Assembly (NCBI GenBank): GCA_902547215.1
Contig: CACCNI010000003.1
Coordinates: 1 to 64,000 of the forward strand
Reading direction: 5' to 3'
Source: an uncultured Pelagibacteraceae bacterium
Lineage (GTDB): Bacteria; Pseudomonadota; Alphaproteobacteria; Pelagibacterales; Pelagibacteraceae
Length of the DNA: 64,000 nt
The notes beneath the pieces were generated by a model. That model was not told the origin of the DNA and did not search any database. It saw only the letters and a list, made by a program, of their open reading frames with translations. Position 1 is the stretch's first letter. Every line of letters starts with the position of its first letter. A program made the translations under genes and the position numbers. Shown here in pieces: positions 55,119 through 64,000 of this stretch.

Positions 55119-55699
55119 TTAATATTTTCCAAATATTTTCTAATATTTCTAATCGGCAGACCCATTATTGTATCAACGTCTCCCTTAATTTCACTGAATA
55201 ATTTTTTTCCTTCCCCTTCTATTTGATAAACATTGTAAGAATATAAGTTTTTATCAGAAATTTTACTTAAATATTCCTGAAGTTCTTCTTGAGTGAAGTT
55301 TTTCATTTTCATCTCAGCTTTTTCAGTATAATTCCAAATCATTTTTCCATCTAAAGATATACAGACTGAACTTATAAGAAAATGAGATTTACCGTTTAGT
55401 GAACTTAAAATATTCATGGCTTCTGTTCTATTTGTTGGTTTTGAGATAAGTTTGCCGTTTAAATCAATTACACTATCTGCGCCTAAAACTATTTCTCCTA
55501 TTTTTTTTTGACTAACCTTATTCGCTTTTAATTCAGCTAAATTTTTAGATATAAGTTCTGGTGTTGCTCCTTGGTTTATTAAGGATTTCTTCACTTCATC
55601 TTCATCTAAATTGGAGGGTTCAACAGTACATTTTATATTGTTTTCATCTAATATTTTTTTTCTTACTTCGCTCTTTGATGCCAAAATTATTGACTTCAT
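55115..55699 (-). CDS. maf: Maf-family nucleotide pyrophosphatase
   Basis: IILASKSEVRKKIL; EIVLGADSVIDL; YQIEGEGKKLFSEIKGDVDTIMGLPI. Confidence 0.94.
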   Translation of the reverse strand: MKSIILASKSEVRKKILDENNIKCTVEPSNLDEDEVKKSLINQGATPELISKNLAELKANKVSQKKIGEIVLGADSVIDLNGKLISKPTNRTEAMNILSSLNGKSHFLISSVCISLDGKMIWNYTEKAEMKMKNFTQEELQEYLSKISDKNLYSYNVYQIEGEGKKLFSEIKGDVDTIMGLPIRNIRKYLENIK

Positions 55700-56517
55700 T
55701 TTTGGTTAAAAATATCATGTATTTTAAGAACTGATGCAGCTGTTTCTTCTACGGATTTTCTTGTTACATCAATACTTGGCCATTTATATTTCTGAAAAAG
55801 TTTCCGTGCATCCTCCATTTCTTTTTGTACAATATCTAAACTTGTGTATTCAGTACTTTCGTTATCTTTAATGGATTGCATTCTATTTTTACGTAAATCT
55901 ATAAGCCTGTCAGGTTCTGCTGTCAGTCCAACTACACATTTTTTTTGAGGATTCTCTTTTAGTATATTAGGAACTGAGTTCTCATTCACCAAGGGTATAT
56001 TTGATATTTTCATTCCTTTGTTTGCGAGATAAATCGAAGTTGGGGTCTTGCTTGTTCTGCTTACACCTAAAAGGATGATATCAGATTTTTCTATATCCTC
56101 TACTGAATTTCCGTCATCGTGATTCATTGTAAATTGTATGGCTTCAATTTTTTTATAATATTCATCGTCCATGATATGTTGTCTGCTTGGAACATTAAGT
56201 GCTTTTTGATCTAAAAGTTTTGAAAAGCTAATTATTAAATCTCCTAATATTCCAAAGCATGGAATATTTTTTGAACTACACTCGTTTGATAAATGTCTAG
56301 CTAATTTGTTATCAACTATTGTATATAATACTATGGCATTTCTGTTTTTTCCCGAGACTTCGAGGATTTTGGAAATTTGGTTTTCTGTTCGTGTAAAAGA
56401 ATAAAAGTGCGTTTTATACTTAAAATTTTTGAATTGAGCTTTAATTGCAAGGAATATTCTTTCTAATGTTTCTCCAGTTGAGTCAGAGATAAGGTATATA
56501 TCATATGTATTAATCAT
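55696..56517 (-). CDS. PPSR family kinase/pyrophosphorylase (DUF299)
   Basis: DIYLISDSTGETLERI; DIILLGVSRTSKTPTSIYLANKGMK. Confidence 0.95.
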   Translation of the reverse strand: MINTYDIYLISDSTGETLERIFLAIKAQFKNFKYKTHFYSFTRTENQISKILEVSGKNRNAIVLYTIVDNKLARHLSNECSSKNIPCFGILGDLIISFSKLLDQKALNVPSRQHIMDDEYYKKIEAIQFTMNHDDGNSVEDIEKSDIILLGVSRTSKTPTSIYLANKGMKISNIPLVNENSVPNILKENPQKKCVVGLTAEPDRLIDLRKNRMQSIKDNESTEYTSLDIVQKEMEDARKLFQKYKWPSIDVTRKSVEETAASVLKIHDIFNQK

Positions 56518-56796
56518 GTATAAAAAGTATATCTATATGTATAAGTCGCTTCATAAAATTAACAAAAACTCTATTCAAAGATTTTAATGTATAAGTACTC
56601 ATTTATATACATTTTAAACCATGTTGATAAATATTATACTTTTTAGATTAAAAAATGATAATTAATTAAAACTCAAAGAATTCTAAGGTAAATTTAATAA
56701 ATCTTATGTGAAAAAGCTGTTATAAACTTGTTAAAAAACATTAACTACCGTTATTAACAATACATACTACAAACAATATAGATAATATTTAATTAT
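56518..56796. other. Probable chromosomal replication origin (oriC)
   Basis: 279-nt AT-rich gap between divergent PPSR and hemE, the conserved alphaproteobacterial oriC neighbourhood; DnaA-box-like TTATCAACA (minus, 56622-56630) and TTATTAACA (plus, 56752-56760). Confidence 0.55.
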
Positions 56797-57804
56797 ATGA
56801 ATACCCTTATACAAGATTGCATAAATAATAAATCTTCCAAGACACCTATATGGTTAATGAGACAGGCGGGGAGATATTTGCCAGAATTTAGATCTATAAG
56901 AGAAAAAAATCAAGATTTTATCAAACTATGTTTGAATACTAAATTATCATCTGAAATAACAATACAACCAATTGATAGATTTGATTTTGATGCTGCTATA
57001 ATTTTTTCTGACATTCTGTTAGTTCCATATGCACTTGGTCAACAAGTAAAATTTAAAAAAAATTTTGGACCTGATTTAAAGGAGGTTGATTTAAATATAT
57101 TAAACGATGTTAAAAAAGAAGACTTTCTTAAAAAACTAAATCCTGTCTATGAGACAATTAAAGAAACGAAGAAAAAATTATCTATAAGAAATAAAGATAC
57201 TATAGGTTTTGTTGGGGCTCCATGGACCCTCTTACTATACATGCTGAACAGAAAGTCTCCCAAGGAGGGAAATTTTAATATTTTTCCAAAAGATAAATAT
57301 ATTAATAATATTTTGATTAAGTTAGATGAATTCTTAAAAATACATATTGAAGCCCAAATTAAAAGTGGTGCATCTATAATTCAGATCTTTGACAGTTGGG
57401 CCGGACTTCTTCCAGAAAAAGATCTAGATTATTTCGTTTATAAACCAATCAAAAGCTTAGTTGATTTTATTAGACAAAAAAAAACAATCTCAATTTGTTT
57501 CCCAAGAAACATCAATAGTTACAAAAAATTTGTAGATAATGTAAATCCCGACATAATCAGTATTGATTATAATGTTGATCCTTTAATTATCAGAGATACT
57601 ATTGATATTCCTGTACAAGGAGGTCTTGATCCAAAAATTTTACTTCAAAACAAAGAAATTGTGAGAAACGAGGTGACAAAATATTTAAAAACTTTCGATA
57701 AAAAAAGATATATATTCAACTTAGGACATGGAGTTCTACCGGAAACAAATCCGGATATCGTTAGATATTTAGTAGACGAAGTTAGGAGTTTTAATGGACA
57801 GTAA
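56797..57804 (+). CDS. hemE: Uroporphyrinogen decarboxylase
   Basis: TPIWLMRQAGRYLPEFRSIRE; FVGAPWTLLLYML; FNLGHGVLPET. Confidence 0.97.
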   Translation: MNTLIQDCINNKSSKTPIWLMRQAGRYLPEFRSIREKNQDFIKLCLNTKLSSEITIQPIDRFDFDAAIIFSDILLVPYALGQQVKFKKNFGPDLKEVDLNILNDVKKEDFLKKLNPVYETIKETKKKLSIRNKDTIGFVGAPWTLLLYMLNRKSPKEGNFNIFPKDKYINNILIKLDEFLKIHIEAQIKSGASIIQIFDSWAGLLPEKDLDYFVYKPIKSLVDFIRQKKTISICFPRNINSYKKFVDNVNPDIISIDYNVDPLIIRDTIDIPVQGGLDPKILLQNKEIVRNEVTKYLKTFDKKRYIFNLGHGVLPETNPDIVRYLVDEVRSFNGQ

Positions 57805-60613: not shown

Positions 60614-62314
60614 ATGTCTGATGTGAATTTGTCAAAACTAAAAAAACTTTTCCAGGAAAAGAGATATTTTGATGTTATTTTAGATATAGAATCTTCAACA
60701 ACAGAAAAGAACAGATCTCCCGCTTTACATAATTTATTGGGAGTTTGTAGAGCATCTCAAAAGGGTAGAACAGACAGAGATACCAAATATGCACTCGAAG
60801 ATTTTGAAAAAGCTTTTTATAAAGATAACTTAGGTGAAATATCTCTGGAGGCATTGTGTAATCATATAAAATTATGTGCAGAAATGGGTCGAAAAGATTC
60901 AGAACTTTTAAAAAACATGCTTACTTCTCAAAAAATGTATTTAGAGGCAGAAAAAAAATTTTTTAAAAACGAGAGGTATTTATCTCATGGAATTGATTTA
61001 TACAAATATCTTTTTAAACATAAGGAAAAAATTTCTATGGTAGAAAAAATTCTCGATTTAAAAGGTTTAAATAAGCTTTTTGGTTCATCTTATATTACAT
61101 CTCAAATGTATTTAAGTAACTGGAGACAAAAAGATTTTGCTGAATTTCAAAAAAAATTTTCAAATATATTTCGGGTTTTAGATGCTAAAAAAATTTCAAA
61201 AATTGATATAACAAAAAAAAAAATAAATATCGGTTTTTTTTCTCCTGATTTTAGGCAATCTCATTCAATTACATATTTTTTGAAAGATCTTATTAAAGAC
61301 TTAAAACATACGAAATTTGAAACTTTTGGACTCTCTCTTTTAAAAACTAAACAACATGACGAGACCACAGATAAATTTTCGACCCTTTTTGATAATTGGT
61401 TTGAACTAGGTGATAAATCAGATCAAGAGATTATTGATGCAATTCAAAATTTAAATGTAGATATTCTAATCGATCTTGCTGGTTTGTGGTCCTCTAATAG
61501 GGTAAATATTTTTAATACGAGAATTTGCCCACTTCAAATAAGCTGGTTAGGTTTTAACAATTCTACCGGACTTAAAGAAATTGATTTTATTTTGGCTGAT
61601 ACTAATACTGTAAAAAATGAAGAAAAAGAATATGTGACAAAAATTTATAAACTTCCTAAAATATGGAATTCTCATTGTGGTTTTGAATATGAAAGAGTTT
61701 TCAATGAATTGCCTTTCAAAAAAAATAATTATTTTACATTTGGATCACTGAACAATTTTATGAAAATAAATGATGAAGTTATAAACACTTGGATTAAAAT
61801 TCTTAAGAAAGTAAAGAATTCAAAGTTAATTTTAAAATCATCCTTATTTCTCTGTGACGAGGTTTTGAAGAAAAAGTTTGAAAAAGAGGGTCTGATTAAT
61901 TCAATCGAGATCTTAAAAAAAACGGCAAGAAAAGATTTTCTGTCTCATATAAATCTTTACGACAAAATAGATCTGTGTCTTGATACTTTTCCATTTAATG
62001 GTGTAACAACAACTTTTGAAGCTTTATGGAAAAATGTACCTGTAATAACCAAGGTAGGATATAACTTTAACTCCAGGTGTGGTGAAAGCATTTTAAAAAA
62101 TGCAAACATCGAAAATTTTATTGCTACAAATAATGAAGATTATATTGAAAAGGCTGTCTATTACGCAAGTAATATAAACGAACTAGATAACACAAGAAAA
62201 AATCTTTTTAACAAAATTAGAGAAACCCCTTTATTTGATACTAAGGGATTTTGTAATGATTTTTGTGAAGCTTTAGAAAATATGCAAAAAATTATAAGTA
62301 GAAATTATAATTAG
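60614..62314 (+). CDS. OGT-like (GT41-like) glycosyltransferase with N-terminal helical/TPR-like region
   Basis: NIGFFSPDFRQSHSITYFLKDLI; LQISWLGFNNSTG; FTFGSLNNFMKINDEVINTWIKILKKVKNSKLILKS; FPFNGVTTTFEALWKNVPVIT. Confidence 0.85.
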   Translation: MSDVNLSKLKKLFQEKRYFDVILDIESSTTEKNRSPALHNLLGVCRASQKGRTDRDTKYALEDFEKAFYKDNLGEISLEALCNHIKLCAEMGRKDSELLKNMLTSQKMYLEAEKKFFKNERYLSHGIDLYKYLFKHKEKISMVEKILDLKGLNKLFGSSYITSQMYLSNWRQKDFAEFQKKFSNIFRVLDAKKISKIDITKKKINIGFFSPDFRQSHSITYFLKDLIKDLKHTKFETFGLSLLKTKQHDETTDKFSTLFDNWFELGDKSDQEIIDAIQNLNVDILIDLAGLWSSNRVNIFNTRICPLQISWLGFNNSTGLKEIDFILADTNTVKNEEKEYVTKIYKLPKIWNSHCGFEYERVFNELPFKKNNYFTFGSLNNFMKINDEVINTWIKILKKVKNSKLILKSSLFLCDEVLKKKFEKEGLINSIEILKKTARKDFLSHINLYDKIDLCLDTFPFNGVTTTFEALWKNVPVITKVGYNFNSRCGESILKNANIENFIATNNEDYIEKAVYYASNINELDNTRKNLFNKIRETPLFDTKGFCNDFCEALENMQKIISRNYN

Positions 62315-62334
62315 CTTAAATTTAATTTAGTAAA

Positions 62335-64000
62335 ATGATATTTGAGAGAAAAATTAAAGATCTAATAACTTTATTTAATAATAGAAAATACGAAAAACTA
62401 ATTTTTGAAACTGAAAGTAATTTTAATGACAAAGAAATTAATAGTCAGGTTTTGATGATTTTAGGTTTAGCCAGGATGAAGTTACCTAACCGTAATTTTA
62501 AAGATGTTTTGTTAGCAATAAAAAATTTCAAAAAAGGTTATATTCTAGAAAAAAAAAGTAAAATAGGATTAGAATGTTTAGTATACTATTTATATGGTGT
62601 TAGTGAAAAAGCAAAACAAGAAAACTCTTTGTCTCTAGATGAGTATGAAGATACAAAAAAATTTTTCTTAGAAGCGAAATCCAATTTCAATTATAATGAA
62701 AAGTTGTATCATGCTATTTCGTTATTAAATGTAAATACTACTAATGTTGATTTTAGACAAAATGTTTTAAAAGAATTAATAGATAAAGATTTCTATAAAG
62801 AAAAAACTTTAGTTTTCGAGTATATTTATAACAACAATTTAAGATATGACTGGTCGCAAAAGGAATTTTTTGATTTTACCAATAAGATAAAAGATAAATT
62901 ACAACTTATTAATTTACCTAAAATTCAGCAATTAAAAAAAAAAAAAATTAAAATTGGCTTTGTTTCATCAAATTTGGTTTCAGACCATTCAGTCACATAT
63001 TTTATAAAAGACTTGTTTAATTATAAAAATGAGAAATTTGAAACTCATATTTTTTCTGATTTAGAAACAAAACAAGAGGATGATACAACCGAAACAATTA
63101 AAAAGAGTGTTGACTTTTTTCATAACATTTCAAAAAAGAATAATGCCGAATTAGCCAGTTTACTAAGATCATTAGGTATTGATGTATTAATTGATATTAA
63201 TGGTTATTTGGGAAAAGGGAGAATTGAAATTTTTAATTCAAGAGTTTGTAGACTACAAATATCATGGATGGGGTATAATAACACTATAGGGTTAAACCAT
63301 AGTGATTATTTAATCGCAGATAAAAATTTAATATTAGAAAAGGAAAAAGCTCTTTATAAAGAAAAAATTATTTATTTGGATGAAATATGGAATTCACATG
63401 CGGGACTTAACATTCAGAGAAAATACAATCCATTGCCTTCACAAAATAGTGGTGCTTTTACACTGGGATCTTTTAACAATTACTTAAAAATTTCTGACGA
63501 CACTATTATAGTCTGGTCAGAAATACTTAGAAAAATTAAAAATAGTAAACTTATATTAAAATCATCAGTTTCATATTCAGAAATTCACTTTAAAAAACTA
63601 TTCGAAAATGAAGGCGTTTTGGATAGAGTTGTTTTTAAAAATAAGTCATCAAAACTCGAGGAACATATTAATCTTTATAAAGATATAGATCTTTGCTTGG
63701 ATACTTTTCCTTACACCGGTGTCACAACAACATGTGAAGCCCTATGGATGAATATACCAGTTATAAGTATGGCAGGGTTTAATTTTAATTCAAGATGTGG
63801 AGAGAGTATTTTAATTAATTCAAATCTAAAAGATTTGGTTGCAAAGAACAAAGATGATTATATTTCTAAAGTAGTTTCATTAGCTAATGACTCAGATAAA
63901 TTAAAAAAAATCAGAAAATTTATTTTTGATGAAGTTTTGAAAACCAATACCTTTAATACCAAGAAATTTGCAGCTAATTTTTGGAAATCAATTCTAGACA
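62335..64000 (+). CDS. Second, paralogous OGT-like (GT41-like) glycosyltransferase, truncated by window end
   Basis: Own translation from ATG 62335 (MIFERKIKDLITLFNNRKYEKLIFETESNF...): KIGFVSSNLVSDHSVTYFIKDLF, LQISWMGYNNTIG, FTLGSFNNYLKISDDTI, FPYTGVTTTCEALWMNIPVIS; not in ORF track. Confidence 0.85.
   Translation, partial: MIFERKIKDLITLFNNRKYEKLIFETESNFNDKEINSQVLMILGLARMKLPNRNFKDVLLAIKNFKKGYILEKKSKIGLECLVYYLYGVSEKAKQENSLSLDEYEDTKKFFLEAKSNFNYNEKLYHAISLLNVNTTNVDFRQNVLKELIDKDFYKEKTLVFEYIYNNNLRYDWSQKEFFDFTNKIKDKLQLINLPKIQQLKKKKIKIGFVSSNLVSDHSVTYFIKDLFNYKNEKFETHIFSDLETKQEDDTTETIKKSVDFFHNISKKNNAELASLLRSLGIDVLIDINGYLGKGRIEIFNSRVCRLQISWMGYNNTIGLNHSDYLIADKNLILEKEKALYKEKIIYLDEIWNSHAGLNIQRKYNPLPSQNSGAFTLGSFNNYLKISDDTIIVWSEILRKIKNSKLILKSSVSYSEIHFKKLFENEGVLDRVVFKNKSSKLEEHINLYKDIDLCLDTFPYTGVTTTCEALWMNIPVISMAGFNFNSRCGESILINSNLKDLVAKNKDDYISKVVSLANDSDKLKKIRKFIFDEVLKTNTFNTKKFAANFWKSILD

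Follow-up and report, generated by a model that had tools for sequence, protein, structure and literature searches.

The replication origin is bounded in both Caulobacter and Rickettsia by hemE and a COG1806 gene, an arrangement that is likely ancestral, and the origin gap measures 383 bp in R. typhi and over 400 bp in R. prowazekii and C. crescentus (PMC1914354). In E. coli the DnaA box consensus reads TTWTNCACA; C also occupies the position corresponding to its position 6 in TTCAC, the epsilonproteobacterial core (PMC5043019). DnaA-trios are 3'-NAN-5' repeats that lie near a DnaA box (PMC8287927). Within SAR11, the oriC of Pelagibacter ubique HTCC1062 was manually identified and its position appears on a published map (PMC4033161); in the literature searched, that map mention was the only one found, and no account of SAR11 oriC anatomy accompanied it there.

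SAR11 is among the most abundant marine bacterial groups, and origin-to-terminus read depth can serve to infer growth rates in situ. In fragmented single-cell genomes, such measurements can be anchored on a precise, conserved origin whose box (TTATNMACA) and array geometry are stated. We analyzed a stretch of 64,000 nucleotides (the window) containing an intergenic gap for which the initial annotation had proposed a replication origin. That proposal is strongly supported by synteny, conserved phased boxes, a switch in strand composition, parS and the gene order of genus g10, and we conclude that the gap is very probably the chromosomal oriC of this Pelagibacteraceae (SAR11) bacterium.

Gene neighborhood of the predicted origin

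The predicted oriC (56518..56796, no strand assigned) is an intergenic gap of 279 nt with 18% GC, bounded by the ATG starts of PPSR and hemE, which diverge from it; the coordinates, length and AT-richness given for it in the initial annotation were all verified. On its left lies PPSR (55696..56517, minus strand; Kinase-PPPase, Pfam PF03618, E 2.6e-89), assigned to COG1806, which we take to be the PPSR family, and on its right hemE (56797..57804, plus strand; URO-D, Pfam PF01208, E 3.2e-83). Pfam also agrees with the wider gene set named at the outset, comprising a dnaQ-type exonuclease, coaE, aroE (shikimate dehydrogenase) and maf on the minus side, and hemH (ferrochelatase), hemJ (UPF0093) and rho on the plus side. 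A search for structured RNA inside the gap returned zero Rfam matches.

The neighborhood becomes variable after rho, a few kb from the origin. Two tandem Glyco_transf_41-type genes occupy 60614-63999 (the first matching Pfam PF13844, the pair 39% identical, the second continuing beyond the window end) where the complete relative G012 has mnmE; among named relatives, mnmE follows rho in 38 loci and such a glycosyltransferase in 22.

The divergent PPSR-hemE pair is itself constant. Every one of the 30 loci in a first genus collection has it around 261-285 nt, as do 29 further loci of the genus and 77 of the 80 loci of a separate collection, the other three having no PPSR match in the available stretch; the collections (30 plus 29, and 80) share some organisms, and the synteny claim covers Pelagibacter-genus loci in which both genes are readable. 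In other genera of the family the gap is 264-288 nt, giving a range of 261-288 nt for this family, and a similar length (262-278 nt) is held in the sister family, in which hemE faces maf. The sister-family gaps (L131-L150), with maf instead of PPSR beside hemE, carry boxes that mostly have C at position 6, for example TTGCCCACA. The nearest among named records are uncultured Pelagibacteraceae single-cell genomes, one of which (L259) has a hemE 97% identical to that of the window.

DnaA boxes and their conservation

Exact matches to TTATNMACA in the window gap number two, and none of its boxes matches TTATCCACA. The first, TTATCAACA in the outer half of the gap (56622..56630, minus strand), lies exactly where it had been placed, and many relatives have TGTTNATAA at the same alignment position; its forward partner is a degenerate box, TTATATACA (eight of nine positions; 56603..56611, plus strand, offset -148). 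The second, TTATTAACA, is the terminal, hemE-proximal box and the anchor of the array; it is present on the plus strand as annotated, at 56751..56759 rather than 56752-56760, and is invariant in the five nearest relatives. Its description as a one-mismatch box does not hold, since it differs from TTATCCACA at two positions and from TTATNCACA at one. Three degenerate reverse boxes between these two were overlooked: TTTTTAACA (8/9) at 56729..56737, TTTATAACA (7/9) at 56718..56726 and TTTTTCACA (8/9) at 56707..56715, all on the minus strand, at offsets -22, -33 and -44 from the terminal box, and all the same in the five nearest relatives. Once the relatives are aligned, these candidate DnaA sites are the most informative ones.

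Within the window the boxes carry modest significance. Across its full length TTATNAACA was seen 12 times against 9.1 expected (not significant), and one-mismatch boxes 19 times against 21.3 expected (no enrichment). The chance of two exact TTATNMACA matches in the gap is about 0.014 from gap shuffles and about 0.002 from window density, probabilities that we judge post hoc; the two boxes by themselves are weak evidence for an origin.

Across relatives the picture is much sharper. The 59 gaps of the genus hold 174 exact TTATNMACA sites, where dinucleotide shuffles give 10.4 (sd 3.1); in 15 gaps less than 70% identical the count is 43, and first-order Markov samples give 2.7. In the aligned gaps box-like sites recur at set positions: of 134 gaps, 122 have a forward terminal box (nine or eight of nine positions of TTATNMACA), and reverse boxes are found at -22 in 71 (35 exact), at -33 in 73 and at -44 in 98 (42 exact), with a forward box at -148 in 30. 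The reverse-box peaks fall at exactly -22, -33 and -44, a spacing of one helical turn (11 bp). In the complete genomes G012 and G065 the gap is the place of maximum TTATNMACA density (three in 290 bp and four, respectively; runner-up two). Alignment, which the initial annotation had put forward as a check on its motifs, thus finds boxes kept in both sequence and position across the genus.

Two other motifs were counted in the gaps. The GTTAA-N6-TTAAC palindrome is present in the window, at 56730-56745 instead of about 56731-56746, and occurs in 1 of the 59 gaps; we rejected it as a conserved palindrome or CtrA site. The CtrA site pair TTAA-N7-TTAA is found in 23 of the 59 gaps, a raw count in very AT-rich sequence. 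A genome-wide origin finder requiring a strict box plus four [CA]TA repeats gave no match at the gap in G012 or G065.

Strand composition and parS

We compared the position of the gap with the strand-composition switch in these two complete relatives, which belong to different genera. The gap lies at 1.262 Mb in G012, where a two-arm fit gives 1.291 Mb (GC) or 1.231 Mb (TA) for the origin, and at 1.090 Mb in G065, where the fit gives 1.072 Mb (GC) or 1.133 Mb (TA). The skew check named in the initial annotation therefore came out in favor of an origin, the gap lying between or adjoining the GC and TA switch points, within about 45 kb, although the minima themselves extend over tens of kb. The bin that holds the gap is outscored by between 8 and 29 of the 1343 or 1160 1-kb bins and ranks in the top 1-2.5%. 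The chromosome skew of the source genome is unreadable because the assembly, of which the window is contig 3, is 67% complete (795 kb in 31 contigs). Local GC skew in the 64-kb window has its minimum near 28 kb, away from the gap; it tracks gene orientation and was rejected as an origin test, being non-diagnostic over 64 kb.

The distance from the gap to the sole parS-like site with at most one mismatch is 7 kb in G012 and 17 kb in G065. These near-perfect sites, one per genome, are at 1254719 and 1107034, respectively, and in G012 parA- and parB-like open reading frames (named from sequence) adjoin the site.

Alternative explanations

The conserved elements might instead form a divergent promoter or regulatory region for hemE and PPSR, with TTMACA as a -35 element and the TA-rich tract as the hemE -10. 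Both genes need a promoter; in most gaps about 37-43 nt separate the end of the terminal box from the hemE start, and a single base distinguishes TTAACA or TTCACA from TTGACA. Against this, a promoter scan gave no excess over shuffles and no promoter at the terminal box or TA-rich tract, and an 11-bp reverse-box array, a length-constrained 280-nt gap and a genome-maximal box density are unneeded for a hemE promoter. Genus g10 bears on the question directly, for there hemE is gone and the box cluster is still beside PPSR. In G067 hemE and hemH are at 718-720 kb, 577 kb from PPSR and rho; the 360-nt gap between PPSR (to 141322) and rho (from 141682) carries TTATNMACA at 141322, 141334 and 141546, and G075 has an equal PPSR-rho spacing. 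Boxes that stay when hemE leaves speak against a hemE promoter as the cause of their conservation, and we consider a promoter reading of the conserved elements very unlikely; the gap may serve both as origin and as promoter region. The hemE matches in g10 (G067 and G075) have 33-34% identity, and a search of G075 for a two-box spacing pattern returned one unrelated palindromic place.

The clustered boxes could also act as DnaA-titrating or regulatory sites, and a related reading makes the gap a place close to the origin where DnaA is bound for regulation or titration, with replication starting at another gap in the broad skew minimum. The tens of kb spanned by that minimum leave room for this, and dnaA is 63-70 kb away; nevertheless, no comparable TTATNMACA cluster exists elsewhere in G012 or G065, and the same gene pair flanks the Caulobacter origin, which is experimentally verified (PMC1914354). 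We hold this reading to be even less probable than the promoter. That the gap is AT-rich spacer DNA in which a short, degenerate motif turns up by chance, as the unenriched TTATNAACA count and a second box two positions off TTATCCACA might suggest within the window, is contradicted by the 174 against 10.4 boxes in relatives, their fixed positions and their invariance in the nearest relatives, and can be dismissed.

Predicted unwinding side and initiation

With the gap read as oriC, the terminal box would face the unwinding side. Past it, on the plus strand, a DnaA-trio-like tract (CATACTACAAACAATA; 56763..56778), degenerate in this lineage, precedes the AT-rich stretch before hemE. Genus-wide, T recurs at every third base past the terminal box, at offsets 6, 9, 12 and 15, with a T fraction of 0.77 in phase and 0.02 and 0.16 out of phase, a strongly phased period that resembles DnaA-trios, in a form that is degenerate in this lineage. 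The published search asks for a run of three or more DnaA-trios no farther than 16 bp from a DnaA box (PMC8287927); the window has a run of two, and strict membership in the basal unwinding system was rejected. Among the genus gaps, runs of at least three occur in 61% (chance 50%) and of at least four in 47% (chance 19%), the former barely above chance and the latter above it.

From this layout we predict DnaA binding, melting and initiation at the gap as follows. DnaA-ATP would bind the forward box at 56751 and the reverse boxes at 56729, 56718 and 56707, one helical turn apart, with the outer boxes near 56603-56630 as probable additional binding sites. Growing beyond the terminal box, the DnaA oligomer would then engage a single strand of the T-periodic, AT-rich tract (about 56763-56796) and open the tract just upstream of hemE, an opening that would let helicase load in both directions.

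Position 6 of the box and its predicted recognition by DnaA

Position 6 of the TTATNNACA sites in the 59 gaps is A in 132 cases, C in 42 and T or G in 12; about three quarters of the boxes thus carry A where the canonical TTWTNCACA has C. The A-for-C substitution remarked on for the two window boxes extends across the boxes of relatives. Genome-wide in G012 the corresponding counts are 270 for A or C and 209 for T or G, and we infer from the comparison that A and C are both selected in the gap and that T and G are not. A lineage-specific DnaA box, raised in the initial annotation, stands in this softer form, in which either A or C occupies position 6.

The source genome encodes dnaA. The DnaA domain IV motif is SNRDHTT in the genus (ANRDHTT in two), SGRDHTT in G065 and GGRDHTT in the sister family, and E. 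coli DnaA (1j1v) also has GGRDHTT. In the source genome (G000, locus L125) and its relatives, SN or AN replaces GG before the RDHTT DNA-recognition motif. That this residue change tracks the use of position 6 is suggestive only. A Pelagibacteraceae DnaA with shifted DNA recognition, its GG before RDHTT changed to SN or SG where the sister family has GG together with boxes mostly of the C6 form, is a tentative idea that we think rather unlikely; if true, the A6 boxes in the rigid 11-bp array would be full-strength sites, not weak ones.

Comparison with known origins

The gap is best described as an ordinary chromosomal oriC, an element of well-known kind, and the relaxed lineage-specific DnaA box together with the phased array is its only new part; as a short sequence it is suited to DnaA binding tests. 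The HTCC1062 oriC, which has a position on a published map, belongs to the same clade (PMC4033161). With the basal unwinding system of Bacillus subtilis and other bacteria the gap shares a terminal box that faces a tract with periodic T (3'-NAN-5' when read on the opposite strand) followed by AT-rich DNA, whereas its trios are partly broken, with a run of two in the window where three are required (PMC8287927). The likeness to the Caulobacter and Rickettsia oriC extends to the hemE and COG1806 flanks, an intergenic, AT-rich location with several DnaA boxes and, in SAR11 relatives, a dnaA gene at a distance with parAB/parS close by. The SAR11 gaps seem to have no consistent CtrA site pair, and they differ from these origins in their length of about 280 nt, where theirs are nearly 400 nt or more, and in boxes of the form TTATNMACA that allow A at position 6.
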